A stretch of 64,000 bases of DNA from Pirellulaceae bacterium (GTDB lineage Bacteria > Planctomycetota > Planctomycetia > Pirellulales > Pirellulaceae), in NCBI GenBank assembly GCA_026004795.1, contig BPJV01000010.1, forward strand, positions 124,001 through 188,000, given 5' to 3'. Shown in pieces: positions 2,210 to 19,877 of this stretch (positions within the stretch are counted from its first letter, which is position 1; every line of letters starts with the position of its first letter). The notes below the pieces were generated by a model that saw only the letters and a program-made list of their open reading frames with translations, made no database searches and was not told the origin of the DNA. Position numbers and translations under genes: made by a program.

Positions 2210-2216
2210 AATCTCC

Positions 2217-3029
2217 TCAATATCGCAGCAGGCAGTACATCGCCCGCACTCCATCACGCCAACCGATCTTTTTTCCTTCGTCGAAGCCGCGGCGATCGTA
2301 ACGTATCGGACGCTCGTAGAACCTGGCCCCACACCGCGCCAGCTTGATCGTCAATTCGATTTCGATGCCGAATCGATTCTCACGCAACGTCGGAGCGATA
2401 CGCTGAATCAATTCTCGACGCATTACTTTGTAACAAGTCTCCACATCACTCAAGTAGAGCCCGGTGCGGAGATTCGCCAAGCGGGTGATCCAGCGATTGA
2501 CCAGCACGTGCCATAGGGGAGGCACGGGGCGATCGTGGTGGCCATATCGGGTACCGTAAACCACATCGGCGTGTCCCTCGACAATCGGTTGGATCAAGAA
2601 CCGAAAATCGTCCGGATCGTACTCCAGATCGGCATCCTGTACCACCACGGCAGTGCCGCTAGCATGTGCGAACCCGGTGCGCAAGGCCGCCCCTTTGCCG
2701 CGATTCTGCTCATGATAGATGACATGCAGGTCGTCGGCCCGCGGCAAACTTTCCAACTTTTCCCGAGTGCCATCACGGCTGCCGTCGTCGACCAAGATGA
2801 TCTCCAACGGCAACTGGGTACGGCGCACACGTTCAATCACTCGTACGACCGTCGACACTTCATTAAACACGGGGATGATGACCGACAAGCGAAAGTCGGA
2901 TGGCAATGCGTAAATCCCCAAACGCCGCCGGACGTCATCGGTTAACGCCATTCCCATCAACTCGTGCAAAGGCTGCGGCCTATCCGTCGCGGGAGGTGCA
3001 GGCGACACTTCCGATTGTGGTTCTTGCAT
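2217..3029 (-). CDS. Family 2 glycosyltransferase (DPM1-like)
   Basis: 270 residues, soluble GT-A type glycosyltransferase. After a 45-residue N-terminal extension the family 2 domain begins (LSVIIPVFNE), with the nucleotide-binding DDGSRDGT at residues 81-88 and the metal-binding DAD at 132-134 (QDADLEYDP). The arrangement matches dolichyl- or polyprenyl-phosphate sugar transferases (DPM1/GtrB-like), but there are no C-terminal transmembrane helices, so it is the minimal soluble form. It is followed after 7 bases by the HTH/TPR gene, whose ribosome-binding site overlaps the TGA of this gene, so the two are probably translated together. Acceptor and sugar donor cannot be told from sequence. 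Confidence 0.88.
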   Translation of the reverse strand: MQEPQSEVSPAPPATDRPQPLHELMGMALTDDVRRRLGIYALPSDFRLSVIIPVFNEVSTVVRVIERVRRTQLPLEIILVDDGSRDGTREKLESLPRADDLHVIYHEQNRGKGAALRTGFAHASGTAVVVQDADLEYDPDDFRFLIQPIVEGHADVVYGTRYGHHDRPVPPLWHVLVNRWITRLANLRTGLYLSDVETCYKVMRRELIQRIAPTLRENRFGIEIELTIKLARCGARFYERPIRYDRRGFDEGKKIGWRDGVRAMYCLLRY

Positions 3030-4070
3030 TGCTCGCGTGTTTTACATTGAAATGTACGGACTATCCACCACCCTGCCGGGCGTGGGCCTAGGCATACCTG
3101 CACCCCGCCCCTCGCCGAGCGTTTTCGTTGGTGCAAGCACATGCAAAAGTCGGTGCGTCGTGCTGCGCAGCGGCATACGACCGAGTCCTTAGTTTCGCCA
3201 ACCGCCGGTGACCTTTCAAGCGGCAATGCGCGCAAATCGGTCCTGCATTTACCTAGCTTGTGGGGTAGGAAAAGTGCTCATCGAAAAAGTGCGGATCACG
3301 CTTGACAAACAAAGGCCACATTCGCACAATTCTCACTCATCGCTGCTGGGGATGCACGTCTTCAGCGGTGCCTACGAGATGACCCGGTGGGAGGCTTTGT
3401 TGCCTGCAAATCCATTGGGTTCCATGAAGCGAAAGCCCTATCGTAGTGCTTCCGTTTCCACCCGAACGCTCCGCAAAGTTTTCTCCTTTTAACGCTTCTC
3501 TGAACTCCTATTTGCAGCGGTATTGGTGGACATGACAGCGGTCATTGAACAGTCCGATAGGGTCCTCCTCGACAGGACAGCAATACCACTGACGTACCGC
3601 TTTCGATCATTGCCAACCCTATTCGTTGCCGTTTGGTTGTGCAATGGATTGTTCATGAGGTCGTGGCGATGTGCAAAGAATGTTCGCTACCGACTGCAGC
3701 GTTTGTTGTGCCCAGAGGTGAGACACGCGCCGCAAGGTTGCGAGCGCGTTGCAGCAGGCCAGGGAGGGCCTTTTCCCATCTGTCGTTGGCTCGCGTCCGC
3801 AGCGGCTGGGCTGCTGACAGCGCATTTTCGGGGCGCTACCCGTCCAATTGCCATCAGCGCACCACGTATTTTCGCTGGCATGGATCGCTCAGTGTAAGCG
3901 GCAGGATGCCGCACTTTTTTACATGCTGACCGGTGCCGCCGCCGCTGGCCGACGGCCCCCGCGACGGCAGAACGCCCTTCCGATGGAGATGGCCCGCCGA
4001 GCGCATGTTCGCTTATGGTTGGCCGTTTTTCCACCGTACCAATTGCGACGAAAGGAGCCTGCGGTCGTTG
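3030..4070. other. 1 kb without a convincing gene
   Basis: Several short open frames exist on both strands, but none has a good ribosome-binding site, a recognisable domain or a protein-like composition; their translations are rich in Arg, Ser, Cys and Pro as expected for out-of-frame GC-rich DNA. The segment should hold the promoter of the glycosyltransferase/HTH pair at its left end. No tRNA, repeat array or clear terminator was seen. Confidence 0.6.
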
Positions 4071-5276
4071 CTATTGTTGGTAATGCCACACGAGCAATTG
4101 AACGCCCATCGATGCCATGCTGATCGCGTTGAGCATCATGTGCATGACTAAACATGGCCAAATCGATTGGCGGGCACGATAGACCACCCCCAAGGCGACT
4201 CCGAAGACGATCAGGGGGATGAAACTTAGGCCATATTCCCAATGCGCCAATCCAAACAGGGTGCCACTAACCAAGGCGGGCCACCAAGGGGGGCTGGCGG
4301 TAGGTGCAGGAACGCTGGAAAGGTTCGAGTACGGGGCGGGGGCGTCCACCGACGCCGGAGCCATTGCCATGCTTCTCTCCGCGGCCGGTGAACTTTCCGG
4401 CCCAAGCGGCTCCACCACTTGGGCAACCAACACGGGAGTTTCCTCGCCATCCTTGATGAGGTTCCCCGATCGTTGCCCAAGAAGGACATCGGGCATCGAT
4501 GGTGGGAACGAAGGCTTTGCCGCAACCGCCTCGCCTTCGTCTTGGGCAGTGGTGTCGCTGGACGCGCCGAACAATACCGCGGACTTATCACGCCCAGGAA
4601 TCGCTTCCAACCACCCCTGCAGCAACACACGGAAGGCAAATTCCTCCGAAACCGGCGCCGTGATGACCGCCACGAAGACGGCGAGCAGGAATCCGACCAG
4701 CGACGCTTCCGCCCGCATCGAGTCCAGAATGGGATGGGCGTACTTGGTATCAAAGGCAGTCGAGACGACGGCACTGAGCACGTAGACGACAGGAATCACC
4801 AACAATCCTGCCACCATACCAATCCCCACCTCCCGAATCACGTCAGCCGTCCAGCCAGCATGCTGCGCTCCACGACGATAACGTGCCACAATCCACGCGG
4901 TGATAATGCCCACCGTGCCTAGATTGCTGAGGCTGACCAGCGCCGTAAAACCAATAGGAGGCGTGGCTTCTGCATTTCTAAGTGCATTCACATCGATGTC
5001 CAGCCAGGTGACCCCTAGACCGAAGAACAGCATTTGCAAGCAGTAAAAAACTGCCACCGTCAATATCAAGTCGATGAGGCCCCAGCGGCGCGGCTCCCAT
5101 GGTCGGCGGGGAAGCACCGTTTTTCCTTGGTACCACCGCCTCAGCACCATGGCCCAAGCCAGAGCCGATCCGGCCAGACCGCCTAACATCATCATCCCAA
5201 AGGTCCCGACCACTACGGCTAAGACAGGATGCTGTTCCAGCAATTCGGGGGTGATTTGTAAACTGTCGGCTTCCAT
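4071..5276 (-). CDS. CPBP-family intramembrane metalloprotease
   Basis: 401-residue multi-pass membrane protein of the CPBP/CAAX protease (Abi) family. Motif 1 is EEFAFR at residues 211-216, motif 2 is FGLAHWEYG with His345, and the third motif holds His379 in VMHMMLN, so all expected metal ligands are present. The start at 5276 has an AAGGAG box seven bases upstream; a longer form from 5297 is less likely. Between motif 1 and motif 2 there is an insertion of roughly 100 residues (about 228-330) that is hydrophilic and rich in Pro, Ala, Ser and Glu; most family members have only a short loop here. The gene stands alone. Such proteases act within the membrane on prenylated or small peptide substrates; the substrate here is unknown. 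Confidence 0.88.
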   Translation of the reverse strand: MEADSLQITPELLEQHPVLAVVVGTFGMMMLGGLAGSALAWAMVLRRWYQGKTVLPRRPWEPRRWGLIDLILTVAVFYCLQMLFFGLGVTWLDIDVNALRNAEATPPIGFTALVSLSNLGTVGIITAWIVARYRRGAQHAGWTADVIREVGIGMVAGLLVIPVVYVLSAVVSTAFDTKYAHPILDSMRAEASLVGFLLAVFVAVITAPVSEEFAFRVLLQGWLEAIPGRDKSAVLFGASSDTTAQDEGEAVAAKPSFPPSMPDVLLGQRSGNLIKDGEETPVLVAQVVEPLGPESSPAAERSMAMAPASVDAPAPYSNLSSVPAPTASPPWWPALVSGTLFGLAHWEYGLSFIPLIVFGVALGVVYRARQSIWPCLVMHMMLNAISMASMGVQLLVWHYQQ

Positions 5277-6078
5277 GAAACGACTCCTTGCGCACACACA
5301 GCAGCGGCGGGCGGGTAGGGGAGGTTAACGTGCTAGACTACAACTCGACCGAGCGACGAATGTAACCCGATTGTGCCACCGATGCGAGGCAAAAATCGGC
5401 GGTGCTGCGGGTCACCAGCAGCATGTTTTCGACCTATCGCGGATGGAAGCAGGCTTCGTCCACAACCGAATCGCGCGCAGACGTGACCATCCGGGGGTTG
5501 GCGGCGACGATGGGCTCTTCGCTACTACCGTAGGAATTGGCGACCAAAGCCTCTGAGGCCCCAGCCCGGCAGGACGCAAGCCCTACTGGCTGAGCCGTAT
5601 TTGGGGTGCTTCCGCAAAACAGGCCCATGAGTAAACAAGAGTTTAACTCCTTGATTTGGATAGCGAGCACTTTCATGAGAATCAAGCGACACAGGCCGGA
5701 GCAGATCATCGGGAAGAGCCGGGAGGCGGATGCGATGCTGGCCGCCGGTCTTTTTTGCAGTGCGGGGGCTTAGGACCGCTATCCTTCTACGCGCTTTCTC
5801 CTGGCCACAGCGAACGCCCACGAAAGAACGCCGAGTTAGCCCCCACAGCGCCAACCAGTCGGAGTACTGCAAAGAAGACTGGATGTGCACGCTGGCGGCT
5901 GGCAAGACGATCGACCACGAATGCCCCGCGTCGGCTTCCCGAGCACAACCACGAGCCACCGCGCCGCAGTCTGGCGTACAGGCAGTCTGCGGAGATTGCT
6001 TTCGGTTGTACCACGGCTTCCCCACCGTCTAGAAGTAGGATCCATACCTCAGATACAAACACGACGCGCGTCAACTAC

Positions 6079-6600: not shown

Positions 6601-6990
6601 TTAGCTTTGTTGAATCTTCAGTCGCTTCTGAATATCGGTCTCGAGAACACCAAACACCTGCTCGTGGCGTTGAACCGACATTTGCAGCGCTGCCAACAGT
6701 CGCTTTGCAGTATAGAAGTTCATCACTACCCGTTGGTTGACCTGAATCGGATCCTTGGGAACCCCGACCGGCTGCGGGTTCAAACCGAAGTCGATGATCA
6801 ATTCCTCGGGCGATCCGGTGACGCGGCAGAAATTCGCGTAGGTAGCGGTGACGTTATCGTCCTTTACTTGCACTTGGACTGGCGCCTGCCGCGGTTGATT
6901 CTGAGCCGGTTGTTGACCTTCCTGCGGCGCGCTAGCCGGAGCCGCGTCATTCGTTTCGTTTGCTTGGGGTGCATCGTCAGTCTTAGCCAT
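6601..6990 (-). CDS. DUF3467-domain protein
   Basis: 129 residues. The start at 6990 is set by an AAGGAG box six bases upstream; longer frames starting further upstream are not supported. The N-terminal 40 residues are low-complexity (Ala, Pro, Gln, Asn), and the rest (YANFCRVTGSPEELIIDFGLNPQP ... VVMNFYTAKRLLAALQ) matches the small DUF3467 family, a single beta-rich domain of unknown function often found in bacteria and archaea. It lies 127 bases downstream of the RRE/M50/HlyD gene on the same strand, so it could be the last gene of that operon. It has no signal peptide or membrane segment, so it acts in the cytoplasm. Confidence 0.85.
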   Translation of the reverse strand: MAKTDDAPQANETNDAAPASAPQEGQQPAQNQPRQAPVQVQVKDDNVTATYANFCRVTGSPEELIIDFGLNPQPVGVPKDPIQVNQRVVMNFYTAKRLLAALQMSVQRHEQVFGVLETDIQKRLKIQQS

Positions 6991-7117
6991 GTCCATCTCC
7001 TTCTTCTTTCTGCTGTGAAACAGCGAACTAATCTCACGCCTTCGGGGCGTAACCACAAACGTTTGTCGCCGACCTTAGGAATCGACGACCCTTACGACAA
7101 AAACGTACTACGTAACT

Positions 7118-9358
7118 CTACAATTCGAATCGGAACGTGCGGGCACAAAAACGATAAACTCGCCATCCCAACGACTTCCAACCGACATCAATCTTTGCCT
7201 GACCGCGATATCCAGGCCGTAGCGGCATCGCCACGTGCTCTAACGGCACCCGCGCTTGGTAAGACGTGCTGATCGGGCGCAGCCGTCCGCTGGAGTCCAG
7301 TTGCGTGTCCAACCGTCCGCCCGACTGCAACGCCAGGTGTTCCGGTGTCTCCTTCATTTCCATCTCCGAAATGCGCTCGATACGACCGACAAAGGAATCC
7401 AACCGGGCAGCATCGAGCATAATCTCGACCTCGTCCCCTTCCTGCACGAGATCGATATCGTGCTGATCGACGACCAATACCGCCTCCATGTTCTTCGGGT
7501 CTCCCACCAGGCAGAGCAAGTCGGCTTCGCTGAAAAATGCGTCATTGTTTTTTTCGTCGAAGGGATTGCCGCTCCACCCAGGCAATTGTTGTTCGGCATC
7601 ATATTGTTTCGGCAGCGGCTTGGGCGGAGGAGGGAGAATAACCCCCTCTCGCGCGGCACGAATCTGCAACATGCTCAGACGATCCACCAGGCGTTCTACC
7701 ATCTCCTTCTTGGTCGCCACGATCTGACGTTGCGTGTCGATCTGCGCGGCCGCTTCGGAATCGAAGACCATGATGTTCTCGAGCACGGCCAAGCGACTGC
7801 GCGCGATTTCGTATTCGCTTTGTGCTTTTACCAGTTGCAATCGAAGATCAACATTATCCAACTCGGCAATGGTTTCACTTGGCTGCACGCGATCGCCAGG
7901 CCGTTTATGCCAACTGACCAATCGGCCCGGCACCATGGCAAAGACCTGGTCCGCTTCCAGTGGCTCAATCGAAACGGCGCAGTCGACATGATAAGGGAAC
8001 GGGACAAAACAGAAGGCAGCGATCAACGCGGTGCCCACCGCTGCGCTCCAAAGAATGTTTTTGCGTTTCATTCTGCTCGCTCGACCGGGAGTACGAAAGA
8101 ACTTGAAGACCTGATAAAGCGGTTGAACGATCATGCCCGTGACGCCGGCGACGGCGATCAGCCTTCCCACGGCCTGCAGACCGTATGGTTCGAGCACTTT
8201 CATCAGGAAAAACATGATGGAGAATACGACCACCCAGCGATAGATCACCGATGCTACCGTATAAAGCGCGAACCAGAACTGTTTTCGTTGTGGTAAAAAC
8301 GGATTCTCTTGCAATTCCAATCCCAAGCAGTATTGTTGAAACCAACGCTTGAGAATCTCGGTCGCTTTCTGTCGGAGATTAGGGATTTCTAGAATGTCCA
8401 TCAGGATGTAATACCCGTCGAATCGTAGCAGCGGATTGCCGTTAAATACGACCGTGCTCACCGAGCAGATGAACATCACCGACAGACAAAGGAAGTTGAA
8501 CATTCCCGGTTCGGAAAACCACCACAGCCAGGTGGCAATCGATGCCAGGATTAGTTCTACGTACATTCCAGCAGCACCGATGAACACTCGCTGCCACTTG
8601 TTAGGCAGCATCCATGAGTCCGATACGTTGCAATACAAGCAAGGGGTGAACACCAGCAGCATGACGCCCATTTCGTGGCATTCTCCACCATATCGTTTGC
8701 AGCTCAATCCGTGACCGAATTCATGCAGAATCTTTACTACGGCCATGGTCAATCCGAGCCATAACCAATTGTGAGCGGCGAAGAATTGTTCAAAGGTGGG
8801 CAACTTACCGCGAAACTCTTGAAAATTTACCAATACCAGCGTGATGGCGCTCAAGCCGAAGAGCAAAAAGAAAATGAGGGCCGGGACGGTAAACAACCAC
8901 CAGGTGAACGGGTTGAGGGCATTGAGGATGCGTTCTGGATCGATCCCCCGAAAACGCAGTGCAAAGATGTTCGACAGCTTGCTGAGCAGTTCGCGTTTCT
9001 TCTTCTGCTGGCCGCGTCGCCGCAGCTGCCGTCCTTGGCCCGTGGCATCCGATATGACCAGGCCACTGCGGTGCAACATGCCGACGAACTGCTGCAAGTC
9101 TTGCAGAGTAATACGCTGGGGAGCGAACTGTGCCTGAAAGCGTTCCTTGATTTGTTCCAGACTGGTTTGTCCATCCAGCCATGTAAGGATCGCGTATTCC
9201 TCCTCGTGAAACCGAAAGTAATTCAGGCCTACCGGTTCCTTGACCACCCAGTAGGCACGACCGTGATATTGATGACGCCGCGCTTCCAAGTCGGGACGAC
9301 GGCGCAAGCGCAATGGGCGCTTGGCGCTGTTGACTAGACTGTCAGCCATCGTCGTCAT
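7118..9358 (-). CDS. RRE/PqqD-like, M50 site-2 protease and HlyD fusion
   Basis: 746 residues with three parts. Residues about 20-100 resemble a PqqD-type winged helix (RiPP recognition element; NYFRFHEEEYAILTWLDG, then a helix ending HRSGLV). Residues about 150-460 form a polytopic M50 zinc metalloprotease core: HEFGH at 212-216 and NPLLRFDGYY at about 308-317 provide the zinc ligands. After a last transmembrane helix (about 455-475) comes a periplasmic HlyD/biotinyl-lipoyl region with a coiled coil. The layout matches proteins annotated as putative peptide zinc metalloproteases (YydH-type). It follows the HlyD gene after 108 bases. The start at 9358 has AAGGA eleven bases upstream. Inference: binds a leader-like peptide, cleaves it in or at the membrane, and couples this to export. 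Confidence 0.85.
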   Translation of the reverse strand: MTTMADSLVNSAKRPLRLRRRPDLEARRHQYHGRAYWVVKEPVGLNYFRFHEEEYAILTWLDGQTSLEQIKERFQAQFAPQRITLQDLQQFVGMLHRSGLVISDATGQGRQLRRRGQQKKKRELLSKLSNIFALRFRGIDPERILNALNPFTWWLFTVPALIFFLLFGLSAITLVLVNFQEFRGKLPTFEQFFAAHNWLWLGLTMAVVKILHEFGHGLSCKRYGGECHEMGVMLLVFTPCLYCNVSDSWMLPNKWQRVFIGAAGMYVELILASIATWLWWFSEPGMFNFLCLSVMFICSVSTVVFNGNPLLRFDGYYILMDILEIPNLRQKATEILKRWFQQYCLGLELQENPFLPQRKQFWFALYTVASVIYRWVVVFSIMFFLMKVLEPYGLQAVGRLIAVAGVTGMIVQPLYQVFKFFRTPGRASRMKRKNILWSAAVGTALIAAFCFVPFPYHVDCAVSIEPLEADQVFAMVPGRLVSWHKRPGDRVQPSETIAELDNVDLRLQLVKAQSEYEIARSRLAVLENIMVFDSEAAAQIDTQRQIVATKKEMVERLVDRLSMLQIRAAREGVILPPPPKPLPKQYDAEQQLPGWSGNPFDEKNNDAFFSEADLLCLVGDPKNMEAVLVVDQHDIDLVQEGDEVEIMLDAARLDSFVGRIERISEMEMKETPEHLALQSGGRLDTQLDSSGRLRPISTSYQARVPLEHVAMPLRPGYRGQAKIDVGWKSLGWRVYRFCARTFRFEL

Positions 9359-9466
9359 GTCGAGCGTTTTCCTTGAACAAGATCCGTAGAGACGGCCACC
9401 GCCATCTCCTGTTCATTACCGAACTGCGTGAATACGGGATTGATTAAAAGAATGACGTGAAGCCAC

Positions 9467-10570
9467 TCAGGGTTGTGCGGCAGAGGGTAGCCGTACAAAG
9501 CACTCGGCCGACATTCCCTCGCGCAGCAACCACTGGCCATTGAGCTGACGATTCTGCACGCGACCGGCGACTCGCACCCGGCCGACACGGATTTCGGGAG
9601 CCACGAAATCGATATTCGTTTCGAATTCAACTATTTGTTCCGGATTGATGTGCACCCGCACGAGCATGGGAGCCCCCTGCAAGGCACTGAGCGCCACCGA
9701 CTTCACATCGACCATCCCTTCCACCTTGACCGTGTTCATGTGCACCAATCTCAAGATTGGGTCTCCGGAGCGGATCCATTCCCCACGATCCCGCAATCGC
9801 TCAGCAACGACCCCGTCGAACGGAGCCTTGACCGAATAGAGTTCTAAGCGAATCTGTGCAGCCTTCACCTTCTCCTCGGCAATGGCGGCCGCCAGGACGT
9901 CCTGGTTGTGCTCCACCGTGGCCACGTCGACAGAAAAACGAGCCCGGTCACGTTCCAGCGTCTTACGGCGCACCGACGACCAGGTCGTCGAGTTTTGCTC
10001 CCACAAACGTTGCTCCGATTCCAGCTCCTCTTCGGCCAGTGCACTTGCCGCTTTGGCATAGTCGATATTGGCCGTCTGGCTCGCTTTCTCCCGCGCGGCC
10101 TGAGCTTCCTTTTCGGCAACTTGCAGCTCAGCCAGGGCGACGCGCGAATCGATCCGCAGGAGGATGTCGCCTTCGCCGACGCTATCCCCTTCTTCCACAA
10201 GAATCTCTTCGATCAGGCCATCGGCTTGGGCAGCCACTTGAATGCTGTGGATGAACTTGATGGACGCCGAATCGAGTCGGATGGCCGAGCGATCCCCCAC
10301 AGGCGAGGCGGAAGAAAAACCACCATTGGCCGGTGGTTGCGACCAGGCCACCGGTATGGCAGTCCCCACGAGGCCGGCTACCAGCCCCAATGCTCGGCAC
10401 CAATTCGCTATTGCGCCTAGGCGGCGACGCGTGGTCGCCTGCGACCGCTGCCTGCGGTCCCCCCATGAGGCAACATGCCAGAGCTGGGTCGAAACTGCCC
10501 ACCACCGATGCAGCCACGCCGTCCATCGAATCTGCTTCGTCACTTCGATCATCTTTCTAGTCAAATCCAT
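9467..10570 (-). CDS. HlyD/RND-type periplasmic adaptor protein
   Basis: 367 residues. A long basic N-terminus (to about residue 53) precedes one hydrophobic segment (about 54-75, LGLVAGLVGTAIPVAW) that is either a signal peptide or a membrane anchor. The periplasmic part has split lipoyl halves (IQVAAQADGLIEEILVEEGDSV and YSVKAPFDGVVAERL) separated by an alpha-hairpin rich in Glu, Ala and Lys, then a beta-barrel region. This is the standard membrane-fusion adaptor that bridges an inner-membrane transporter and an outer-membrane channel. It lies between the GAF-HlyD and RRE/M50/HlyD genes (51 and 108 bases), so the three very likely form one complex. No TolC-like or ABC partner is encoded beside it. 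Confidence 0.87.
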   Translation of the reverse strand: MDLTRKMIEVTKQIRWTAWLHRWWAVSTQLWHVASWGDRRQRSQATTRRRLGAIANWCRALGLVAGLVGTAIPVAWSQPPANGGFSSASPVGDRSAIRLDSASIKFIHSIQVAAQADGLIEEILVEEGDSVGEGDILLRIDSRVALAELQVAEKEAQAAREKASQTANIDYAKAASALAEEELESEQRLWEQNSTTWSSVRRKTLERDRARFSVDVATVEHNQDVLAAAIAEEKVKAAQIRLELYSVKAPFDGVVAERLRDRGEWIRSGDPILRLVHMNTVKVEGMVDVKSVALSALQGAPMLVRVHINPEQIVEFETNIDFVAPEIRVGRVRVAGRVQNRQLNGQWLLREGMSAECFVRLPSAAQP

Positions 10571-10621
10571 GTAAAACGGGTCCCAGCTGTCTTGTCTGGT
10601 CAGTATGCTTCGTGGTGTTTT

Positions 10622-12667
10622 TTAGAAAAGCAAATTCGCCCGCACCCACTCGACAACTTCGTGGAACCAGACGAATGCGGCGGAGCGCTTCCCGCACTTG
10701 ACGTCAGCAATGACCTCCGCCCCCGGTCGTCGCGAGACGCCCTCTAGCGAATCCAGGTCCACGCGAAGGCGCACGACGGCGCCTTCTTCCGGATCAAGCT
10801 CGGCACGGGCCGCCACCGCCTCCGCAGCTAAGTGGCCGTGGTGGGTTACCGCCGGGTTCGTAGACAGGATGTATTCCACGGGCAACGGTTGACCGCCGGT
10901 CTGCTCCAACGCTTCGTCCAGGTAACGCATGCGTTTTTCGGGCATCAAGACTTCCAGCTCCCACTCCCCGGATGGATCGGCGATGTTGGCGAGCACCTGC
11001 CCCGTCACCACCGGACGCGCTCGCAATCGCTTTTTCAGCTCCCAATCCATGACGATGCCGTCGATCGGTGATGTCCTCACCAATTGCGCTTCTTTCTCCT
11101 GCAGCAACGCCAACTGAGCTTCCAGCGTGTCCCGCCGCGTGAGATACTCCTCTTGTTGACCGATCAAGCGGCTTTGTTCCAACGGATCTCGCACGCTCCG
11201 GCGAATCAGTTCGGTGAGCGTAGCGATCTGCTTTTCCGCTTCTTCCAACTGGCCTTGGAGACCGGCTATCTCGATCTCCAGTTCTCGATTACGCAACTTG
11301 ACCAACGGATCACCCGCACGCACCACATCGCCGTGGTCGACGTAAACCTCCGCGACCTCCCCATCGACATGCGCGAAGACCTGCCGCTGCGTCCTTGGCT
11401 GCAACACACCGTTGGCCTCCAGATCCAAATCGATTTTCACCACGAACATGGCGATCAGGGCAGCCGTGATCAGCGTCAGGATGGCCAGCGTTTTAGGGAG
11501 AGCCGAGCCTCGAAACAGCCACATGGCGCGCCCCAAGAAGCGCCACAACGGCATCAAGAACAGTTCGTTATGGCTCAGGGCATTGCTCAACGCACGTGCT
11601 GCATGCTCGTACACCAAGTCACACCGCGATCGCAACTCCTCCTGCGGCACCTGGCTCTCGATTTGTTCCACGATCAACGCACCGATGATTTCTCGCTGCG
11701 TGGGATCCTCACGCTGCACCTTCTCCTTGGCTTTGACATCTCCCTCGACAACCCGCTCCGGTCGCCGAATGGGCAGTACGGTAATCGTCCTACCGTGGGA
11801 CAGGTCAACATAGTCCTCGATCGCCTCTTCCAACTGAGGTGGCAAGTCAAGGGTCGAACCGTCGTACCAGAGCGCCTCACCAGCGGCACACACACGAGTT
11901 GCCAAGGTGTTGAGAGCGGTGACGATGTTGGATCGATTTTCGATCGAGTCCTGCCCGGAAATCGCTCGCACCTTGCAGTGACGCCCTTTCTTGATCGCCA
12001 CGCTGACGCGGTCGCATCCGATTAGCTGCCGCCCCTCATTGGCAATCGTATAAGCCGTATCGTGGAGGTCGAGGTTATCGTGGACCAAGCGAGCGAAGTG
12101 GTCGGCGCGCTGCCACATCTGCTGACGATCGGCGACCTTCTGCAGTGTTCGCCCTTTCAGCCACTCGCCGATCAACCCGGCCATCTGTTCGAGAAAACGT
12201 TGATAACCTCGTTGGATGTTGGGCGCCGAATTGGGGCGCTGAAAGACCTCAATCACCCCAGCAGGCTGCTTTCCCGAAAACAACGGCGCTACCACCAACA
12301 GGTATTGGGTGGGATTCCCTTCCTGCTGGTCTTCACCGAGCATCGAGTTGGGCGGCACTAGCTCGGGTTGGCCACGCGAAAACAGCCGAGTCAACAATCG
12401 ACCGTGGCGTACCGCATCTTCGTTCTCAGCATCGAGCAGGTTTTGACTGACGTTGATTTGATAGCTTAGACGCAACGCCCCCGCATCGTCGAGCAACCAT
12501 ACCGCCCCGCCGACTGCCGCTAACGCATCGACAATCCGTTTCAAGACGGCCGGGTAGTACTCTTCCGCCGGCGTGTCGGACCGCGACAACTCCGCGATTT
12601 CATTGATCAACGCCCGGATTTGCTGTTTGGTCTGTTCGACCGTCTCGGGAGATGGTGTTGTCGACAT
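10622..12667 (-). CDS. GAF-domain and HlyD fusion protein
   Basis: 681 residues. Residues about 35-170 and 200-365 are two GAF-like sensor modules (AVGGAVWLLDDAGALRLSYQ; IGCDRVSVAIKKG). One transmembrane helix follows (about 392-411, LAILTLITAALIAMFVV), then a periplasmic HlyD part with lipoyl halves (QVFAHVDGEVAEVYVDHGDVV; TSPIDGIVMDWEL) around a coiled-coil hairpin. The cytoplasmic sensor therefore sits on the same chain as the periplasmic adaptor. It is the first gene of the minus-strand cluster. The predicted topology allows a cytoplasmic signal to alter adaptor assembly, but that is inference. The ligand of the GAF modules is unknown. Confidence 0.85.
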   Translation of the reverse strand: MSTTPSPETVEQTKQQIRALINEIAELSRSDTPAEEYYPAVLKRIVDALAAVGGAVWLLDDAGALRLSYQINVSQNLLDAENEDAVRHGRLLTRLFSRGQPELVPPNSMLGEDQQEGNPTQYLLVVAPLFSGKQPAGVIEVFQRPNSAPNIQRGYQRFLEQMAGLIGEWLKGRTLQKVADRQQMWQRADHFARLVHDNLDLHDTAYTIANEGRQLIGCDRVSVAIKKGRHCKVRAISGQDSIENRSNIVTALNTLATRVCAAGEALWYDGSTLDLPPQLEEAIEDYVDLSHGRTITVLPIRRPERVVEGDVKAKEKVQREDPTQREIIGALIVEQIESQVPQEELRSRCDLVYEHAARALSNALSHNELFLMPLWRFLGRAMWLFRGSALPKTLAILTLITAALIAMFVVKIDLDLEANGVLQPRTQRQVFAHVDGEVAEVYVDHGDVVRAGDPLVKLRNRELEIEIAGLQGQLEEAEKQIATLTELIRRSVRDPLEQSRLIGQQEEYLTRRDTLEAQLALLQEKEAQLVRTSPIDGIVMDWELKKRLRARPVVTGQVLANIADPSGEWELEVLMPEKRMRYLDEALEQTGGQPLPVEYILSTNPAVTHHGHLAAEAVAARAELDPEEGAVVRLRVDLDSLEGVSRRPGAEVIADVKCGKRSAAFVWFHEVVEWVRANLLF

Positions 12668-13386
12668 AGCAACCTTCTATTGGTCCGTGAATGCTCATGT
12701 ACCAACACGTGTACATGCTCGGGGATCCAACTGACACACTAATTCCCTCACCGGCGGTCGCAAACGCTTCGGGGCAGCAACTACCGTGACTTCGGTTCGC
12801 CAGCAACGGAACGTGACGGTTATACCAATTGTCTTCAGATCCGGCCTAGTGAAATCTTGGCGAAACGCCACGTTGGAGGGAGTCGCAGTCAAGAAAGTTC
12901 CCCAGAATCCAGAAAAAACCAGGCTTCATGGCTTCCACTTGACTTCCCCGCCAACCAATGTTGCTCGGCGTTCGTACTAAGAGTATAAACGACGAAGCAG
13001 GGTAAGGTGAACACGTGCGGAGCAATGTAGCGGCAGTTTTTTCGTTCCTTGTCGATAACATCGATTCTGCAAGGAACGCGCCGACGCAGTGCTGCGTCCC
13101 AAGGGCATTGACGACTACGAACGGTTGCATTGGCCCCATTTTGAAGCATCCTAAACGAACCGTGGAAGGCTGGCCGAACATACCCTGCCTAACCCCCAGC
13201 GGTGCATGCCAACCCTGTTGCGGGAACAGTACCGGAGCGACGCTCTGTCTCTGCCGGAGGGGCGTGAAACATGCTCTAGCGGTGGTGGCGCCGTACGAGA
13301 ATGGCAGGACGCGCCGTTGCAACTGCTCCTTAGACACGCGACAGGGTTAAACCATCAGGACACCGAGCAACTCTCCGGGAGCGTTT
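12668..13386. other. Divergent intergenic region, 0.7 kb
   Basis: Lies between the start of the GAF-HlyD gene (minus) and the start of the GAF-like gene (plus), so it must carry both promoters. The open frames inside it have no supportable features. No operator-like palindrome could be singled out with confidence. Confidence 0.6.
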
Positions 13387-14352
13387 TTGTTGGCTATGAA
13401 TAATAAGGCGTGGCAGGAAGCAATCTCGCACTTGCCCGACTCATCGTCGACCGGGCGCCCCCAAGAACTGTTGGCGGTCCAACAGCTGATCGAGGGCGAT
13501 TTGCCGCTGCAGCCATTTCTAGAACAACTGCTTCCCCATGCCTGCCAGTTGTTTGGTGGAGTGGCCGCGGTCACTTGGTTGAAAGCGGCCGGTGCTCCGG
13601 GAGCCGTGTTCGGTATTCGCTATCTCATGGACGGAGTCTTGCAATCGCTCGCCGGCCAACAGAAGCACGAGCGCCTCGTCCAGATCGCCTGGCGGCAACG
13701 TAAACCGATGCTGGCAGAGCCGACGAGGAAGAAGGCAAGCACCCCCGAGGACGCCGAGCACGCCCAGCTGTCCTCTCACAATCCGACCGCCCATCCGCTG
13801 CTGTTCGGGCCCATTTTGCACTTGTCCGAACCGATCGCATTGCTGGAAATCGTCCTGGCAACACGCGGTGAACCGTTGACCGGCCACCAGCGACAGCTCT
13901 ACCTGCGGGGAATACAACTGTTTGCCGATCGGGTCTATCAAGGTCTCCGTCGACGGATGACTCTGCCGGCGGCGACGCTCCGGCATGCTACCGAGCAACT
14001 GGAACAACTGGTCAGTGATGTCCAGGCGTTGCAGCAGCAGATTCTGAGGACGATTGAAGCGCGCTTGCAGCAATTCCACGGTTGGTCGTTCCCTACCATC
14101 GCCGAGAATCAAGAATTCGCCAAGATGGTGCACCAAATGCTTGACGCCCACGGACTACGAGTTCAGTGCACCGAGTGCGGCAGCCCAGCGATCTTACGCT
14201 GTTTGCGTGCTGGCAATGCGAAGAACGGCGCTTTCGTCTTCGACCACTACTTGGAATCAGGGCGGACTTTTCATGGCGGGCCCACCACGGTACCTCGTCT
14301 CAAGGTCGTGCCCAAGCCGGCTCGCCGTTCGGCCATTTCCAACACTGCCTGA
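13387..14352 (+). CDS. GAF-like protein with C-terminal Cys motif
   Basis: About 320 residues, cytoplasmic. The N-terminal half (LLPHACQLFGGVAAVTWLKAAG) resembles the first GAF-like module of the divergently transcribed GAF-HlyD protein. Residues about 200-235 are a predicted coiled coil. The C-terminal 65 residues carry Cys261, Cys264 and Cys272 (CTECGSPAILRC) and a conserved-looking FVFDHYLESGRTFHGG segment, suggesting a small zinc-binding module. The start is uncertain: TTG at 13387 has GGGAG five bases upstream, while ATG at 13396 is the nearest ATG. Sharing a promoter region and a sensor fold with the export cluster suggests a regulator of that cluster. No DNA-binding domain is seen. Confidence 0.7.
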   Translation: MLAMNNKAWQEAISHLPDSSSTGRPQELLAVQQLIEGDLPLQPFLEQLLPHACQLFGGVAAVTWLKAAGAPGAVFGIRYLMDGVLQSLAGQQKHERLVQIAWRQRKPMLAEPTRKKASTPEDAEHAQLSSHNPTAHPLLFGPILHLSEPIALLEIVLATRGEPLTGHQRQLYLRGIQLFADRVYQGLRRRMTLPAATLRHATEQLEQLVSDVQALQQQILRTIEARLQQFHGWSFPTIAENQEFAKMVHQMLDAHGLRVQCTECGSPAILRCLRAGNAKNGAFVFDHYLESGRTFHGGPTTVPRLKVVPKPARRSAISNTA

Positions 14353-14648
14353 CCGTTATCTACCGGAGCAGGGACGAGTGTCGCTCCTGTTTGACGCAGG
14401 GCCCATTCTTCTCGGGGGCCTTTGGAAAGCTGCGGTGCCTGTGTTGCTTGTCCGCGGCGGTCCTCCAGGCCAAGCGATCGACGTTATCTCTTGAAGCAGG
14501 TGGACGTTCCCGCTTGTTTGCCACACCGTGCCATTGAAGCTTGCTTGCATGTCGACGACGGAACATCCGTCAAGACCTCATGGAGATGGCGCCAAGTCGG
14601 TCGAGCGGCCGGAACGGAGGTGGTGCTGCCGCCGTAGGCTGAAAGCGG

Positions 14649-15071
14649 TCAACGAGCGTCTGATCGATGAAGCTTGCAGGTGCCCTCGTCACAAGCAGCA
14701 AGACGATAACGGCGCTGGGCGATCCAGCGATAAGCACGGCGCCAGCAAGGCATCATACCGGGCAGGTGCATCAGCGGGGCCAGCGGCCATAGCAGCGGCA
14801 GCCGCCGAGATAGCGCCCGCATGGCATCCGCTCCACCATAAGCCTCTCCCGCGGGGGTTATCAACCACATCTGTTCCATCAATTGCTCGTAACTGAGTTG
14901 AGGATAGCGCTCAGCCACGCGTGGATCGTGCAAGTCGATGTACGTTAGCCGCCCGCCGTCGATGGCACGCAACCGCTCAACTTGCCGACGACAAAACTGG
15001 CACTTGCCATCCCAAATGACGGTGGCCAGGTCGGGATGCTCATCGGGATCGGGCAACGGACGGTCGCTCAT
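14649..15071 (-). CDS. DCC-family thiol-disulfide oxidoreductase-like (DUF393)
   Basis: 140 residues with the family signature DGKCQFC at residues 21-27, a thioredoxin-like CxxC site, and the downstream helices typical of DUF393 (AMRALSRRLPLLWPLAPLMHLPG). It has no signal peptide, so it is cytoplasmic or peripheral to the inner membrane. It is the last of four same-strand genes (isomerase, deoC, sulfatase, this), 75 bases after the sulfatase stop. The name of the family rests on the DxxCxxC motif; the redox partner is not known. Confidence 0.88.
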   Translation of the reverse strand: MSDRPLPDPDEHPDLATVIWDGKCQFCRRQVERLRAIDGGRLTYIDLHDPRVAERYPQLSYEQLMEQMWLITPAGEAYGGADAMRALSRRLPLLWPLAPLMHLPGMMPCWRRAYRWIAQRRYRLAACDEGTCKLHRSDAR

Positions 15072-15146
15072 TGGGCACCTGGAATACGAAACATTTCTGA
15101 ATCAACACACTGCCATCGCCGCATGGGGGAAAAAGAATTCAAGTTC

Positions 15147-16622
15147 TCAAAAATCACGAAACGGGCCGCGCGGCTCTGCCGCCTCCATCTCCCGCTGCCA
15201 AGCTGCGAAGATCCGTTGCAGGCGAACCACGACGTCGGGCCGTTGAGCAGACAAATCGTGCTGTTCGCCCACGTCCTCACTCAGATTGTACAATCCCTTC
15301 CCCGCCTTGGTATCCACCCATTTCCACGTGCCCTCGCGAACTGCTCGATCGTCGCGACGCTGCCAACACATGACTTCTCGCGGGCTGGCGACGTCATCGC
15401 TCAGGATGTCGATCACATCGTATCCATCGAGCACCAACTGCGGCGGCAAAGAGGCCTGGCAGAGATTGGCGACAGTCGGAAAAAGCTCCAACGAACTGAG
15501 GAACTGGTCTCGCACTTCACCGGCTGGAATCCGCGGAGGATAGACAACCATCGCGGGAACCCGTATGCCTCCTTCCCACAACTGGGCCTTGTGCCCTCTC
15601 AAAGGGCCATTGTCTGCAATACTGCTGCCGCCGTTGTCCGAACAGAAGAAAATAAAGGTGCGGTCCGCAATGCCGTACTGATCGATCAATTGGACGACTC
15701 GGCCAATCGCCGCATCCATGTGGGTAACCGCCGCGCAATACTCGAGACGTCTGCCCGCCCGATTGCGCACCTGTGCCGGTTTGCCGTAGCGCTCGGCTTG
15801 TTGCACCCCGGCTTCTTTCTGTAAGTGCGGATAAAGGGACTTGTAATGCTCCGTTGCTTGCGGCGCTGAGCGAATCACTGGATCCAAATTGGAAGCCGAG
15901 TGAGGCGCGTTGAACGGCAGGTAGAGGAAGAACGGCTCGTCGTGGCACTCGGCCAAGAACCGCTCCGCTTCCCGCAAGAACAAATCAGTGCAATAAGTAC
16001 CTCGATCCTCCTCCGTCGGTGCTGCCCCCCGATACATGCTGGGGATACCATAACGCTCGTGGGTGAAGTAATCGATCCCCGTGTTGACGAATCCGTAAAA
16101 CCTTTCGAACCCGCGCGACGTAGGCAAGAATCGCCGGAGGGAACCTAAGTCCCATTTACCGAAAATCGCCGTGCGATAACCTCGACGGCGCAACAGTTCG
16201 GCCAGAAGCAATTCACGCTCATCCATGCCACCAATTCGCTCGAATGTCACGGCGTACTCAGCAGGTGAGTAGCGATACCCGTAGTCCGGCGCTTCATTGC
16301 GCAGCATGTCGTACATGCCGTTGCGCTGGGGATAGCGGCCGGTTAGCAGACTGCCGCGACTGGGGGTACACGCGGGCCAAGCGACGTAGAAGTTCGTCAA
16401 TCGCACGCCGCGGGCCGCCAGTTGATCAAGGTTCGGGGTGAGCACTTCACTGCTACCAAAACAACCCACATCTCCGTAGCCTTGGTCATCGCTGACGATC
16501 CACACCACATTGGGTGGGACGTGCCGTTGCTCTGCGGCGGCGATGGTCGTAGTGGCAGCGAAAACCAGCCACCAACAAACGGCGGCACCGACGGTCCATA
16601 CAATGCTGGGATAGTACCTCAT
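15147..16622 (-). CDS. Secreted sulfatase, Cys-type
   Basis: 491 residues with an N-terminal signal peptide (about 1-30). The alkaline-phosphatase-superfamily start NVVWIVSDDQGYGDVG supplies the metal-binding Asp pair, and CTPSRGSLLTGR at 85-96 holds the Cys that must be converted to formylglycine. Later metal ligands appear in FCSDNGGSS. The C-terminal part is typical of planctomycete arylsulfatases acting on polysaccharide sulfate esters in the periplasm or outside the cell. The substrate cannot be told. No formylglycine-generating enzyme is encoded in the window. It sits downstream of deoC (151 bases) and may belong to a sugar-catabolic group. Confidence 0.92.
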   Translation of the reverse strand: MRYYPSIVWTVGAAVCWWLVFAATTTIAAAEQRHVPPNVVWIVSDDQGYGDVGCFGSSEVLTPNLDQLAARGVRLTNFYVAWPACTPSRGSLLTGRYPQRNGMYDMLRNEAPDYGYRYSPAEYAVTFERIGGMDERELLLAELLRRRGYRTAIFGKWDLGSLRRFLPTSRGFERFYGFVNTGIDYFTHERYGIPSMYRGAAPTEEDRGTYCTDLFLREAERFLAECHDEPFFLYLPFNAPHSASNLDPVIRSAPQATEHYKSLYPHLQKEAGVQQAERYGKPAQVRNRAGRRLEYCAAVTHMDAAIGRVVQLIDQYGIADRTFIFFCSDNGGSSIADNGPLRGHKAQLWEGGIRVPAMVVYPPRIPAGEVRDQFLSSLELFPTVANLCQASLPPQLVLDGYDVIDILSDDVASPREVMCWQRRDDRAVREGTWKWVDTKAGKGLYNLSEDVGEQHDLSAQRPDVVVRLQRIFAAWQREMEAAEPRGPFRDF

Positions 16623-16773
16623 CCGAGTTCGCCTCGATTATCGTCACTCTCGAACCTCACGTGCACGCACCGAACTCGGTGTGGTGCCTCCCCATGCTTC
16701 GGTGAAGTGGAACCGGGCAGCGGATGGATGCCGCTTGCCTCACCGCTGTTTAACCGTCTGGCGCAACGGATTG

Positions 16774-17502
16774 TCAATATCCGCCAGTGGTGGCGGAGGA
16801 TTCGGCGAATTCAATCGGTTCCAATCCCAGGGCTTTTCGCGCAGCATCGAGAATGTCCCGAGTCCGGCTGGCTCCACAGCGTGTGACGCCGATTTGCCGC
16901 ACTTGTTGTAGGGTAGCAAAGTCACGAACACCGCCGGCTGCTTTTACCTGGACGTGTGGACCAACGTGCCGAACCATCAACTGAAGGTCCTCCAACGTCG
17001 CGCCGCCAGTTCCAAAACCCGTGCTCGTCTTGACCCAGTCTGCGCCGAGTTCCGTACAGATCTCGCACAATCGAATCTTGTGTTCATCCTGGAGGAAGCA
17101 ATTCTCGAAGATCACTTTTACCTTCCTGCCGGCGGCATGGGCGACCTCGATTACCGCCGCAATGTCTCGCGCCACGTAGTCCCAATTCCCACTTAGTACC
17201 TGACTGATGTTCACCACCATATCCAATTCCTGGCCACCATCGTCGATCGCCCGCTCGGCCTCCTGCCGTTTCACGTCGGTGCGGTGACCGCCGTGAGGAA
17301 AGCCGATGGTAGTGCTGGGCAGGACATCCGTACCTGCTAGCAGTTCGGTGCATCGACGCAGGTAATACGGCATGATGCACACGCTGGCCACCTCGTAGGC
17401 AATGGCCAGTCGACACCCGGACTCCAATTCCGCCTCCGTCAGATTGGGAGCCAACAACGAATGGTCGATCATTTTCGCGTAATCACGATAGGTCGCGGAC
17501 AT
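16774..17502 (-). CDS. deoC: Deoxyribose-phosphate aldolase
   Basis: 242 residues, class I aldolase that splits 2-deoxyribose 5-phosphate into acetaldehyde and glyceraldehyde 3-phosphate, the last step of deoxynucleoside breakdown. The Schiff-base lysine is Lys158 in VKTSTGFG, and Lys187 in VKAAGGVRD is the second catalytic lysine; the Asp in ELDMVVNI completes the site. Length is normal for the family. The start at 17502 (MSATYRD) is preferred over TTG at 17520, as an AAGAG box lies just upstream. It follows a sugar-phosphate isomerase-like gene by 152 bases and precedes a sulfatase by 151, so it is probably part of a carbohydrate operon. Confidence 0.95.
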   Translation of the reverse strand: MSATYRDYAKMIDHSLLAPNLTEAELESGCRLAIAYEVASVCIMPYYLRRCTELLAGTDVLPSTTIGFPHGGHRTDVKRQEAERAIDDGGQELDMVVNISQVLSGNWDYVARDIAAVIEVAHAAGRKVKVIFENCFLQDEHKIRLCEICTELGADWVKTSTGFGTGGATLEDLQLMVRHVGPHVQVKAAGGVRDFATLQQVRQIGVTRCGASRTRDILDAARKALGLEPIEFAESSATTGGY

Positions 17503-17654
17503 AAACAATCTCTTGAGCAATGGGATTTCAACAACAAGAAAGTCGATTCAACGAATGGTCATGACATCGGTCTGCTGTCGCCAGCGTCAGGGGGGCAGCT
17601 GCGTCGATTTGGCCCTCGGTGAGGAATTTCAGCGGCTGGCCTTCACGCGATCCT

Positions 17655-18572
17655 TCACGCGATAAAATTCCGCAGGAACCGATGACTTTGCACCAAGGAT
17701 TTCTTGCGGTCGTCTACGGAGCCCTCGAAGGCACGATCTTCCACTTCCACGCATACAGGTCCGCGATAGCCAACGTCCAACAGGGTGGCGATGAAAGCCC
17801 CCCAATCGATCTCTCCCAGCCCCGGAATCTTCGGTGTATGGTACTGTGTTGGATAAGCCAGTGTTCCCACGTCGTCCAATCGGTGCCGATCGATGCGCAC
17901 ATCTTTAGCGTGGATATGAAACAGGCGGTCCGAAAAATTGCGGAGCGGCGCCAGGTAATCCATGTGTTGCCAAACCATGTGGGACGGGTCGTAGTTCAGC
18001 CCCAAGTTGGGACTGTCAAACTGCTCGAACAGACGACGCCAGATGGCTGGAGACACGGCAATGTTCTTACCCCCCGGCCATTCATCCTCGGTAAACGACA
18101 TGGGACAGTTTTCGATGCCGATCTTGATTTTCAGCGACTCGGCCATCTCGATCAATGGTCCCCAGGTATCGACCAACCGAGGCCAATTCGCATCGACGCT
18201 CTTGCTGGGGTCTCGCCCGATAAAGGTGTTGACGCGGTTCAGCCCTAGTTTGGCGGCACCTTCAAAAACACGTTTCAAATGCTCCACGGCCTGAGTCGCT
18301 TCCTGAACGTCGGGCGAAAGGTAGTTGGGATAGTAGCCCAACGCACTGATAGTGACGCCCGTCGTTTCCACAATACTGCGAATCTCGGCAATTTTCGTTT
18401 CGCTCAATTGGTTGACGTCGATATGTGTCACCCCGGCATACCGCCGCTCTGCCTTGCTGACCGGCCAACACATGACTTCGACGCATTGATAGCCGATCTC
18501 GTGGGCCAATTCGAACAACTGGCGAAACTCCAAATCGGGCAGAATGGCACTGGCGAAACCAAGCTGTAACAT
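17655..18572 (-). CDS. Sugar phosphate isomerase/epimerase (xylose isomerase-like TIM barrel)
   Basis: 305 residues, cytoplasmic TIM barrel of the AP endonuclease 2/xylose isomerase-like superfamily. Metal-ligand candidates are Glu154 (GIENCP), Asp195 and His198 (NYDPSHM), His221 (HIHAKD) and Glu278 (EVEDRAFEG). The family includes sugar epimerases, tagatose/psicose epimerases and inosose-type enzymes, so the exact substrate is open. It is the first gene of the minus-strand group isomerase-deoC-sulfatase-DCC, which points to breakdown of a sugar released from sulfated or nucleoside material. There is no signal peptide. Confidence 0.88.
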
Positions 18573-19877
18573 GATCTAGCTCTCTTTCCTACGCTCGAGA
18601 AAATCCAACGGAGTCGCTGCCGCGGCATTTGTCCTTCCCATGTCCTTTCAGGGGCGGGACGTCATTATAACAGTCGACTAAGATGCCGTTAGAAGCCACC
18701 CGACAGGTCGCCGTCTTCCTTGCTCGCGGCACTCGATTTCCACCATCCTGGATGATTCACGGAACGAGACCTAGATCACTTGCCGTAGCTGCTCTCAGTG
18801 GCCTGATGAAGCAATGCAGACCACCCGCAGCAGCAGGCACTCGAACATCCTCTACCAACATCCTGGCGGTAAGACAGGACGCGCAACGCTGGACGAACCT
18901 TGCTCACCCCGGGGCGAACCGGTTGTTTCAGCCAGGCGAACCGGGTGTCGTGGTTACCCTATCCACTACGGTCGAGTCCACCGCCAAACCAGGAAACCCA
19001 CTCAACCGACAACGCGGCGGGCGTCCTTATGGAACTTTGGTGGGAGCGCCATCGTTGAGTCGCATCTGGTTGACGGTGTCTCCTCCCCCATCCGTGTCCG
19101 CCACCACTGCAAGCTTTGACCAGGCGACACACCTACCGCGGCCGACAAGTCTTGCGGAAGAAGACTACCTTTTTCTCCCGCTGTTCGAGCAAGGTGATTG
19201 GTGGATCGCTGTCATGGGATTCCCTGCGTCGGCCCAGGATTAAGATTTGCCCTCGTTATGACAGCGCTGTTAAATCCTACGGCATGTCCGTACTGGAACA
19301 GGTCGGAGCATTTTTCTCAAGGAAGCATTTCCCATGCGCACACAGCGGAAACCTAGGCCACAAAGCTTTCTAGTGATTCGCTTGGCGGAACGACCGCTGG
19401 CAACTTGCCAAAGCGGCCCTGCCTAGGGGGTAGCACGCCAGAGACCACGCATTGAAGGTTGCTCTGTGGGGGGCACCATCGCTTGCTGATATGAATCCGT
19501 TGCGATATTGGCCAGGTTGTATGGCGATGTCAGCATTCCACATCCTACCAGGGAAAGAGTGCGCATCCAGAGATCTGGAAGTCCGTCGAGCGGCAGTCCG
19601 TAGAATTTGTAGCGGCATCGAAATCAGTCAAGTGGCCGCGATCTCAAGCTCAAAACCGGCGCGCGTGTCACCAGTGCAACGCGATGCCGTCTTTATAGGT
19701 GAAGGGAGGCGTGGAGCGAAGCGACGGATTTGGGCGACACGCTCAGAAGCTGAAGAACGGGAAAGGTCTTCAGGGACAGCGGCGCGTGGCACCAGCTCCC
19801 TTTTCGGCAGCGGTTTGGTTGCCTGCCAACATGGGTAAATGCTGATTCTCAGGGGTACAGGTTCGAGGAGGTATAGG
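18573..19877. other. 1.3 kb without a convincing gene
   Basis: The stretch lies between two divergent genes. The largest open frame (18683-19243, plus) has no ribosome-binding site, no domain and an unusual Arg/Thr/Ser-rich composition, so it is judged spurious. A promoter for the isomerase group should be at the left end and one for the Ala/Gly-rich pair at the right end. No RNA gene or repeat was recognised. Confidence 0.55.

Follow-up and report, generated by a model that had tools for sequence, protein, structure and literature searches.

Loci that combine genes for a secondary SecA_DEAD protein, HlyD-type adaptors, a Peptidase_M50 protein and GAF domains were described in planctomycetes and proteobacteria by Kamneva, Poudel and Ward (2015; PMC4452313). 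The paper proposes a function related to type I secretion, calls the broader role "completely unknown" and, in the text read, names no cargo; a term search of its main text found no occurrence of LEPR, PqqD, DUF3467 or cadherin. Here we describe a gene set of this type, located in a stretch of 64,000 nucleotides (the window) from a Pirellulaceae bacterium (GCA_026004795.1, contig BPJV01000010.1, positions 124,001 to 188,000). Its four minus-strand genes (12667-6601) were confirmed to form a tight operon, which encodes an adaptor carrying GAF modules (GAF-HlyD), a second HlyD-type adaptor, a protein (RRE-M50-HlyD) in which a domain resembling the recognition element (RRE) of ribosomally synthesized and post-translationally modified peptides (RiPPs) precedes M50 protease and HlyD parts, and a small DUF3467 protein. 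As in the published locus, the M50-HlyD, HlyD and GAF-HlyD genes stand together and the genome contains a SecA without the wing-scaffold domain; unlike there, the SecA gene is unlinked to the operon. The locus type is already published; what is added here is a probable class of cargo, the RRE reading and a DUF3467/SapC component.

Other known systems offer partial likenesses. Type I secretion (HlyB-HlyD-TolC) has adaptors of the HlyD type in common with this locus type, as well as TolC, at some loci, and a very large probable cargo; the differences are that no ABC transporter is present here, a SecA-type ATPase being found instead, that the proposed signal is N-terminal rather than C-terminal, and that an M50 protease fused to HlyD makes up the membrane protein. 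The M50 proteases of daptide and YydH RiPP systems likewise consist of an RRE-like part followed by an M50 membrane domain, whereas the chain of the window runs on into HlyD and no RiPP enzyme is encoded in the flanking genes scanned. In Gram-positive bacteria, accessory SecA2 systems handle special surface proteins, which are often large, and have a second SecA in common with the locus; here, however, this SecA gives no SecA_SW match, stays under the cut-offs of the SecA2 models and is coupled to HlyD and M50 proteins.

We consider the operon, with a probability of about 0.7, to be the envelope-spanning part of an exporter that resembles a type I secretion system, works without an ABC transporter and has as its cargo large proteins that begin with a basic stretch and the motif LExRxLLxA (LEPR-XLL). 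Among the open-access literature matches listed, none links LEPR proteins with the locus by title or abstract. LEPR-XLL occurs in two papers of the literature searched, one of which mentions it for a Vibrio giant protein.

Giant LEPR proteins beside the gene set in proteobacteria

Thirteen of 80 plasmid records were opened, ten of the RRE type (H1-H9 and H12) and three of a SecA-less type (H14, H15 and H24). The usual content of the alphaproteobacterial plasmids is a giant protein, a DUF3467 protein or none, a (GAF-)HlyD adaptor, RRE-M50-HlyD, SecA2 and an RND-type adaptor; beside two alphaproteobacterial loci of the RRE type, TolC is also annotated. SecA2 was found in nine of the ten RRE-type loci and DUF3467 in six. 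All eight giant N-termini that were read in these loci carry the motif LEPR/YEPR/MEPR/IEPRxLL[SAN]AD (Table 1); the giants of the other two stand beside H3, where the gene runs off the stretch, and beside H5. A GAF-HlyD search of the plasmids returned two weak records only.

A genome-wide scan with the RRE-M50-HlyD gene gave 561 loci. The best 80 of them, which come from alpha-, beta-, gamma- and deltaproteobacteria and Nitrospirales and by record title include no planctomycete, were analysed by profiles; those for SecA2, SapC and TolC rested on 6, 1 and 2 sequences from plasmids, respectively. GAF-HlyD was present in 78 loci, SecA2 in 76, the adaptor in 61 and DUF3467 in 34; for the 45 loci with both flanks, the corresponding numbers are 45, 44, 40 and 19. 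An LEPR N-terminus was directly visible in 9 of the 80, and over these nine motifs and the eight from plasmids the pattern E-P-R-x-L-L-x-A is invariant (17/17).

Starting from 45 hand-chosen loci of the 80, LEPR-8K was searched in 42 genomes, as well as in 14 control genomes. Matches over the curated cut-off were obtained in 38 of the 42 locus genomes, compared with one of the 14 controls; G068, G071, G072 and G092 gave none over the cut-off. Most matches over the cut-off (46 of 58) sit in open frames of at least 5,000 amino acids (aa), the largest being of 15,161.

This tight linkage of the gene set to LEPR giants is also seen in 292 genomes from the order of G066, the genome of the Pseudooceanicola locus L138; we take this order to be Rhodobacterales. 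M50-HlyD matches were obtained in 50 genomes, of which the 32 where the match covers the M50 part were counted as positive, 18 adaptor-only genomes being left out. LEPR matches occur in 25 genomes; 23 have both and 258 neither (Fisher p 1e-24). When only full-length RRE-type matches are considered, LEPR is found in 15 of 17 genomes (p 8e-17). Both p-values overstate independence, because the 292 genomes are related. The great majority of LEPR matches (25 of 28) share a contig with an M50-HlyD gene, and 23 of the 28 lie within 6 kb of it, on the assumption that the open frame begins with the match; these pairs are often on the same strand, and convergent ones occur too.

Within the best 80 loci, 33 have DUF3467 only, 20 SapC only, one has both and 26 have neither; DUF3467 is a shared component and SapC apparently its near-exclusive alternative.

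The three SecA-less plasmids, from Azospirillum, Niveispirillum and E. coli (one record each), encode giants of the DUF4347 or Ig-like kind next to TolC, M50-HlyD and two adaptors, and no SecA was found within the stretches opened. Their leaders read LEPRFMFDAA in Azospirillum and LESRQLFDGA in E. coli, and the N-termini of their M50-HlyD proteins show a weak resemblance to RRE (6e-5 to 7e-4 when seven sequences were searched). Since an LEPR-like leader is found here without a SecA partner, we conjecture that the leader may be older than the partnership with SecA. As a separate observation, the cassette of the E. coli plasmid (NZ_CP081687) includes an Ig-like protein of 4,459 residues, adhesin-looking; similar matches, among those listed, come from 18 Escherichia and 8 Citrobacter records, one of which was opened.

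LEPR-type proteins in Planctomycetota

Planctomycete neighbourhoods of the operon contain recurring large open reading frames that begin with a basic N-terminal stretch and LExRxLLA. Ten such N-termini near the operon were used to train a motif model of our own (A3), which is circular for its ten training loci, because it was built from operon neighbours. LEPR-type frames were found at 10 of 60 planctomycete operon loci, as against none in 40 stretches used for control (one-sided p 0.004), in a comparison where the pattern was written after the neighbourhoods had been seen and also selected the same ten windows, and where the control stretches were hand-picked at round coordinates in 14 family genomes.

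In a sample of 60 genomes of the family, A3 matches (E 0.02) are present in 55, with up to 56 in one genome. Over 199 genomes of Planctomycetota (E 0.05), LEPR and M50-HlyD occur together in 19 and neither occurs in 132 (p 1.2e-4); 46 of 47 genomes were kept in the M50-HlyD count, G528 being left out. This test is weaker, because about ten LEPR genomes are expected by chance at this threshold. Of the nine genomes with at least two LEPR matches, eight have M50-HlyD.

For the genome of the window itself, NF012209 (LEPR-XLL) gave no matches at E 0.001, and A3 (E 0.05) gave 12, in frames of 371 to 5,057 aa. At least five lysine or arginine residues precede the motif region or fall in it in 11 of these, and a Sec-like hydrophobic core is found in none of the 12: their maximal 15-residue hydropathy does not exceed 1.35, as compared with 1.75-2.21 for four presumed signal peptides.

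Conservation of the operon and its SecA partner

GAF-HlyD was matched in every one of the 60 sampled family genomes, in 58 of them at E 1e-67 or better and weakly in G022 and G057. In the 45 of the 60 fetched loci that extend at least 6.5 kb downstream of GAF-HlyD, this stretch contains HlyD in 41 cases, M50-HlyD in 39, DUF3467 in 26 and all three in 24. Because GAF-HlyD is matched across the 60 genomes and the same downstream genes recur, the gene set is not a product of chance, and the conserved neighbourhood of GAF-HlyD and M50 genes that the initial annotation of this DNA had expected is indeed found in relatives. The same annotation regarded the GAF-HlyD partner as unusual; it is in fact usual for the locus, as published in 2015 (PMC4452313).

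A second, diverged GAF-HlyD/HlyD/M50-HlyD set is present in the same genome on contig C7. It occupies positions 8335-17767 of stretch L098 and is divergent from a gene pair that looks POTRA/Omp85-like by eye and would be a possible outer-membrane partner. Paralogous operons in L091, L093 and L100 lie near a gene for a ClpV-like ATPase, with TssF/TssG-like genes in L093 and L100 (names given by eye), and their surroundings look like a type VI secretion cluster.

The secondary SecA of the window's genome (Table 1) also has preprotein-binding and P-loop domains, and Pfam gives no SecA_SW match in it. A secondary SecA was found in 59 of the 60 family genomes, with best E-values no higher than 7e-156, and the remaining genome, G022, has the canonical SecA as its top match. 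The SecA2 gene lies within 9 kb of GAF-HlyD in 20 of the 60 family loci, and in 14 of these 20 a gene for a BBP7 beta-barrel protein is also present. In the window's genome the BBP7 gene is divergent from the secondary SecA, and its product is a candidate for the outer-membrane part. In this locus type a SecA-like ATPase stands where an ABC transporter would: according to a motif pattern, no ABC-like frame lies within 9 kb in 76 of the 80 non-planctomycete loci, and one does in the other 4.

An alternative is that the system serves processing and not export, LEPR proteins leaving the cytosol by another route and being trimmed or anchored at the envelope by the M50-HlyD complex. The intact M50 active site and the dispersal of LEPR genes in this genome would fit. 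Transport is favoured, however, by the presence of adaptors, by TolC at some loci and by a SecA-type ATPase at 76 of 80, and the LEPR N-termini examined are devoid of Sec-like hydrophobic segments; we regard the processing alternative as unlikely.

RRE and M50 parts of the 746-aa protein

The frames and domains assigned to the five genes of Table 1 by the initial annotation were recovered from the list of open reading frames and by Pfam. This includes the presence of M50 and HlyD on one chain (Peptidase_M50 1.3e-8, HlyD_3 2.1e-5), along which a simple hydrophobicity scale places five hydrophobic segments. The RRE/PqqD match proposed for its N-terminus was sought by HMMER profiles and found. 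A profile of 30 rows, covering the N-terminal 110 residues, was compared with solved structures and matched PqqD (3g2b) at 1.6e-4, PQQ C/D (5sxy) at 0.0046, and the lasso-peptide RREs TfuB1 (6jx3) at 0.017 and TbiB1 at 0.11; of the ten structures matched at E up to 1, some are unrelated. TIGR03859 matched the N-terminus of the window protein at 1.6e-4 and 15 of the 30 rows, under its curated cut-offs. PqqD was found in 8 of 10 rows scanned of one alignment, one of the ten being a fragment of 33 residues, and several proteobacterial relatives are labelled 'PqqD family' in the NCBI annotation. By profile, the prediction of an N-terminal RRE/PqqD-like domain holds.

The multi-transmembrane domain contains the M50 motifs HEFGH at 212 and FDG at 313 (NPLLRFDG), and H212, E213, H216 and D314 are invariant in two alignments, of 34 and 16 sequences. 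NF041824 (daptide_HExxH) covers residues 29-412 at 7e-56, with 190 bits as against a cut-off of 300, and the YydH/LiaK model residues 162-331 at 1e-13, with 51.6 as against 225 bits. When the M50-HlyD profile was compared with solved structures, all 20 matches fell in the adaptor part. One in-frame stop each (TGA, TGA and TAG, respectively) was noted in the M50-HlyD relatives G527:C5, G584:C20 and G496:C1.

RRE domains bind RiPP leaders, and these model matches could point to a RiPP-type cassette for maturation and export, in which RRE-M50 would bind and cleave short peptides at their leaders, like the proteases of daptide or YydH systems, before the adaptors carry the product out. However, both scores are under their cut-offs, the neighbours in other phyla are LEPR giants, and none of eight flanking genes scanned with Pfam encodes an ABC transporter, TolC or a RiPP enzyme, a systematic search for short peptide genes not having been part of the analysis. 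On account of the giant neighbours in other genomes and the lack of a nearby RiPP enzyme, this reading is set aside; it has little chance of being correct. The initial annotation, which left the cargo unknown, had suggested a look for short peptides with conserved leaders; the evidence points instead to large LEPR-XLL proteins. On the whole, its RRE, M50-HlyD, GAF-HlyD and neighbour assignments stand, including the lack of an adjacent ABC transporter, TolC or RiPP enzyme, and the unusualness and the short-peptide cargo are not supported; it left DUF3467 unnamed, and a SecA-like ATPase is encoded about 54 kb away.

Other features of the operon and its surroundings

The 681-aa protein matches Pfam GAF (4.1e-10, in two stretches) and HlyD_3 (6e-9) or biotinyl-lipoyl models, and its single hydrophobic segment, located by hydrophobicity at residues 387-417, is C-terminal to the GAF part. 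The DUF3467 profile gave no matches to solved structures at E up to 1.

Table 1. Genes of the operon, SecA and outer-membrane candidates of the same genome, and N-terminal motifs of plasmid giants
Feature	Coordinates	Strand	Remarks
GAF-HlyD adaptor, 681 aa	12667-10622	minus	GAF-like modules, one hydrophobic segment, biotinyl-lipoyl/HlyD part
HlyD/RND-type periplasmic adaptor, 367 aa	10570-9467	minus	HlyD_3 1.2e-15; RND_mfp 9.1e-24
RRE-M50-HlyD protein, 746 aa	9358-7118	minus	PqqD-like N-terminus (~19-101), M50, C-terminal HlyD
DUF3467 protein, 151 aa	7056-6601	minus	small soluble component; PF11950 1.8e-24
Divergent GAF-like protein, 321 aa	13387-14352	plus	TTG start; conserved C-terminal Cys domain
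Secondary SecA	C10:74771-76822		~54 kb from operon; SecA_DEAD 4.6e-106
BBP7 beta-barrel gene	L105 12067-13470 (C10)		divergent from secondary SecA; 2.9e-77
Thalassospira giant			IEPRILLSAD
Methylosinus giant			LEPRVLLNAD
Alisedimentitalea giant			LEPRLLLAAD; motif upstream of annotated start
Pontibrevibacter giant			MEPRVLLSAD
Pseudosulfitobacter giant			LEPRFLLSAD
Pseudohalocynthiibacter giant			YEPRLLLSAD; gene spans the record's start, absent from gene table
Mesorhizobium giant			LEPRLLLSAD
Rhizobium johnstonii giant			LEPRLLLSAD; motif upstream of annotated start

The 321-aa product of the divergent gene shows no Pfam match over cut-off, GAF included, and no NCBIfam match. In a single-pair blastp, its residues 31-182 align with the GAF part of the 681-aa protein (22% identity, E 2.8e-4). 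C-x-x-C is present in all 13 aligned sequences, the window protein included; the C-terminal domain CxxC...AILR...[FY]DH...RTFHGG is likewise kept in 13 of 13, and 6 of them lack the GAF-like half. The protein is a possible regulator. The eight flanking genes scanned by Pfam (1217-5297 and 14649-20972) encode a MerR/TPR protein, a glycosyltransferase, a CAAX-protease-like protein, a DCC1-like protein, a sulfatase, DeoC, a TIM barrel and one protein without a match.

Discussion

We infer transport, its direction, and the recognition and cleavage of the leader from the domains of the gene set and from the proteins linked to it. In the cytosol, the M50-HlyD protein would bind the LEPR leader by its RRE domain, as the relationship of this domain to the PqqD/RRE family suggests, and the secondary SecA, with its SecA_DEAD and preprotein-binding domains, would be the ATPase that drives the unfolded chain. 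For the passage of the inner membrane, the M50 membrane domain, SecYEG or both could provide the pore. The three HlyD-type parts would build a periplasmic tube leading to an outer-membrane channel, TolC in some proteobacteria. The GAF module would sense a cytosolic signal, and DUF3467, or SapC in other lineages, may act as a small helper. The M50 protease, given its invariant active-site residues, may trim the leader; this is the least certain step, because the LEPR leader is non-hydrophobic and fits recognition by RRE better than cleavage within the membrane.

Several results weigh against the proposed exporter. That same lack of hydrophobicity makes LEPR no obvious substrate for an intramembrane protease, and the RRE match of the window protein is under the Pfam cut-off (PqqD, 0.0078). 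In the window's genome, all 12 LEPR matches lie on contigs other than that of the operon, and the window has no such protein. The association in Planctomycetota is only moderate, 27 of the 199 genomes having M50-HlyD only and 21 LEPR only; within the family, G027, G030, G031, G047 and G051 have the system and no LEPR match to A3, and G022, which has three LEPR matches, lacks both a good GAF-HlyD and a SecA other than the canonical one. In the order sample, 9 of the 32 M50-positive genomes have no LEPR match and two LEPR genomes have no M50-HlyD. As for single plasmid loci, that of Thalassospira has an LEPR giant and no SecA within the stretch opened, and the SecA of R. johnstonii reads as two pieces in different frames. 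A TolC gene was detected beside one of the 80 loci and none of the 45 with both flanks, by a two-sequence profile that is insensitive, as it missed the annotated TolC genes of the three SecA-less plasmids. Export itself, finally, is deduced from sequence comparison.

Homology of the adaptors to HlyD/RND proteins could also suggest efflux of small molecules or ions with GAF-controlled gating, the giants being unrelated surface genes that hitch-hike on plasmids or islands, but the gene set has no transporter pump and the association, which extends across 292 genomes with most matches within 6 kb, recurs in several phyla, which makes this explanation hardly credible.

The wider proposal, to which we give an even chance, is that the exporter represents a distinct secretion system of diderm bacteria, in which an N-terminal LEPR leader, read by an RRE domain on one chain with an intramembrane protease and a periplasmic adaptor, and the energy of a wing-less SecA would move proteins of up to about 15,000 residues across both membranes without an ABC pump. 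One conserved copy would then serve dozens of scattered proteins in planctomycetes, and each copy an adjoining giant in proteobacteria, and the SecA-less DUF4347 variant, with its leader of the LExRx[LM]FDxA type, would be a sister branch.

If the exporter is real, a locus whose role was "completely unknown" in 2015 would gain a function, a class of cargo and a readable signal. Planctomycetes and many proteobacteria would have a route for very large proteins without a Sec-like signal, and the use of the RRE domain would be extended from the maturation of small peptides to protein secretion.

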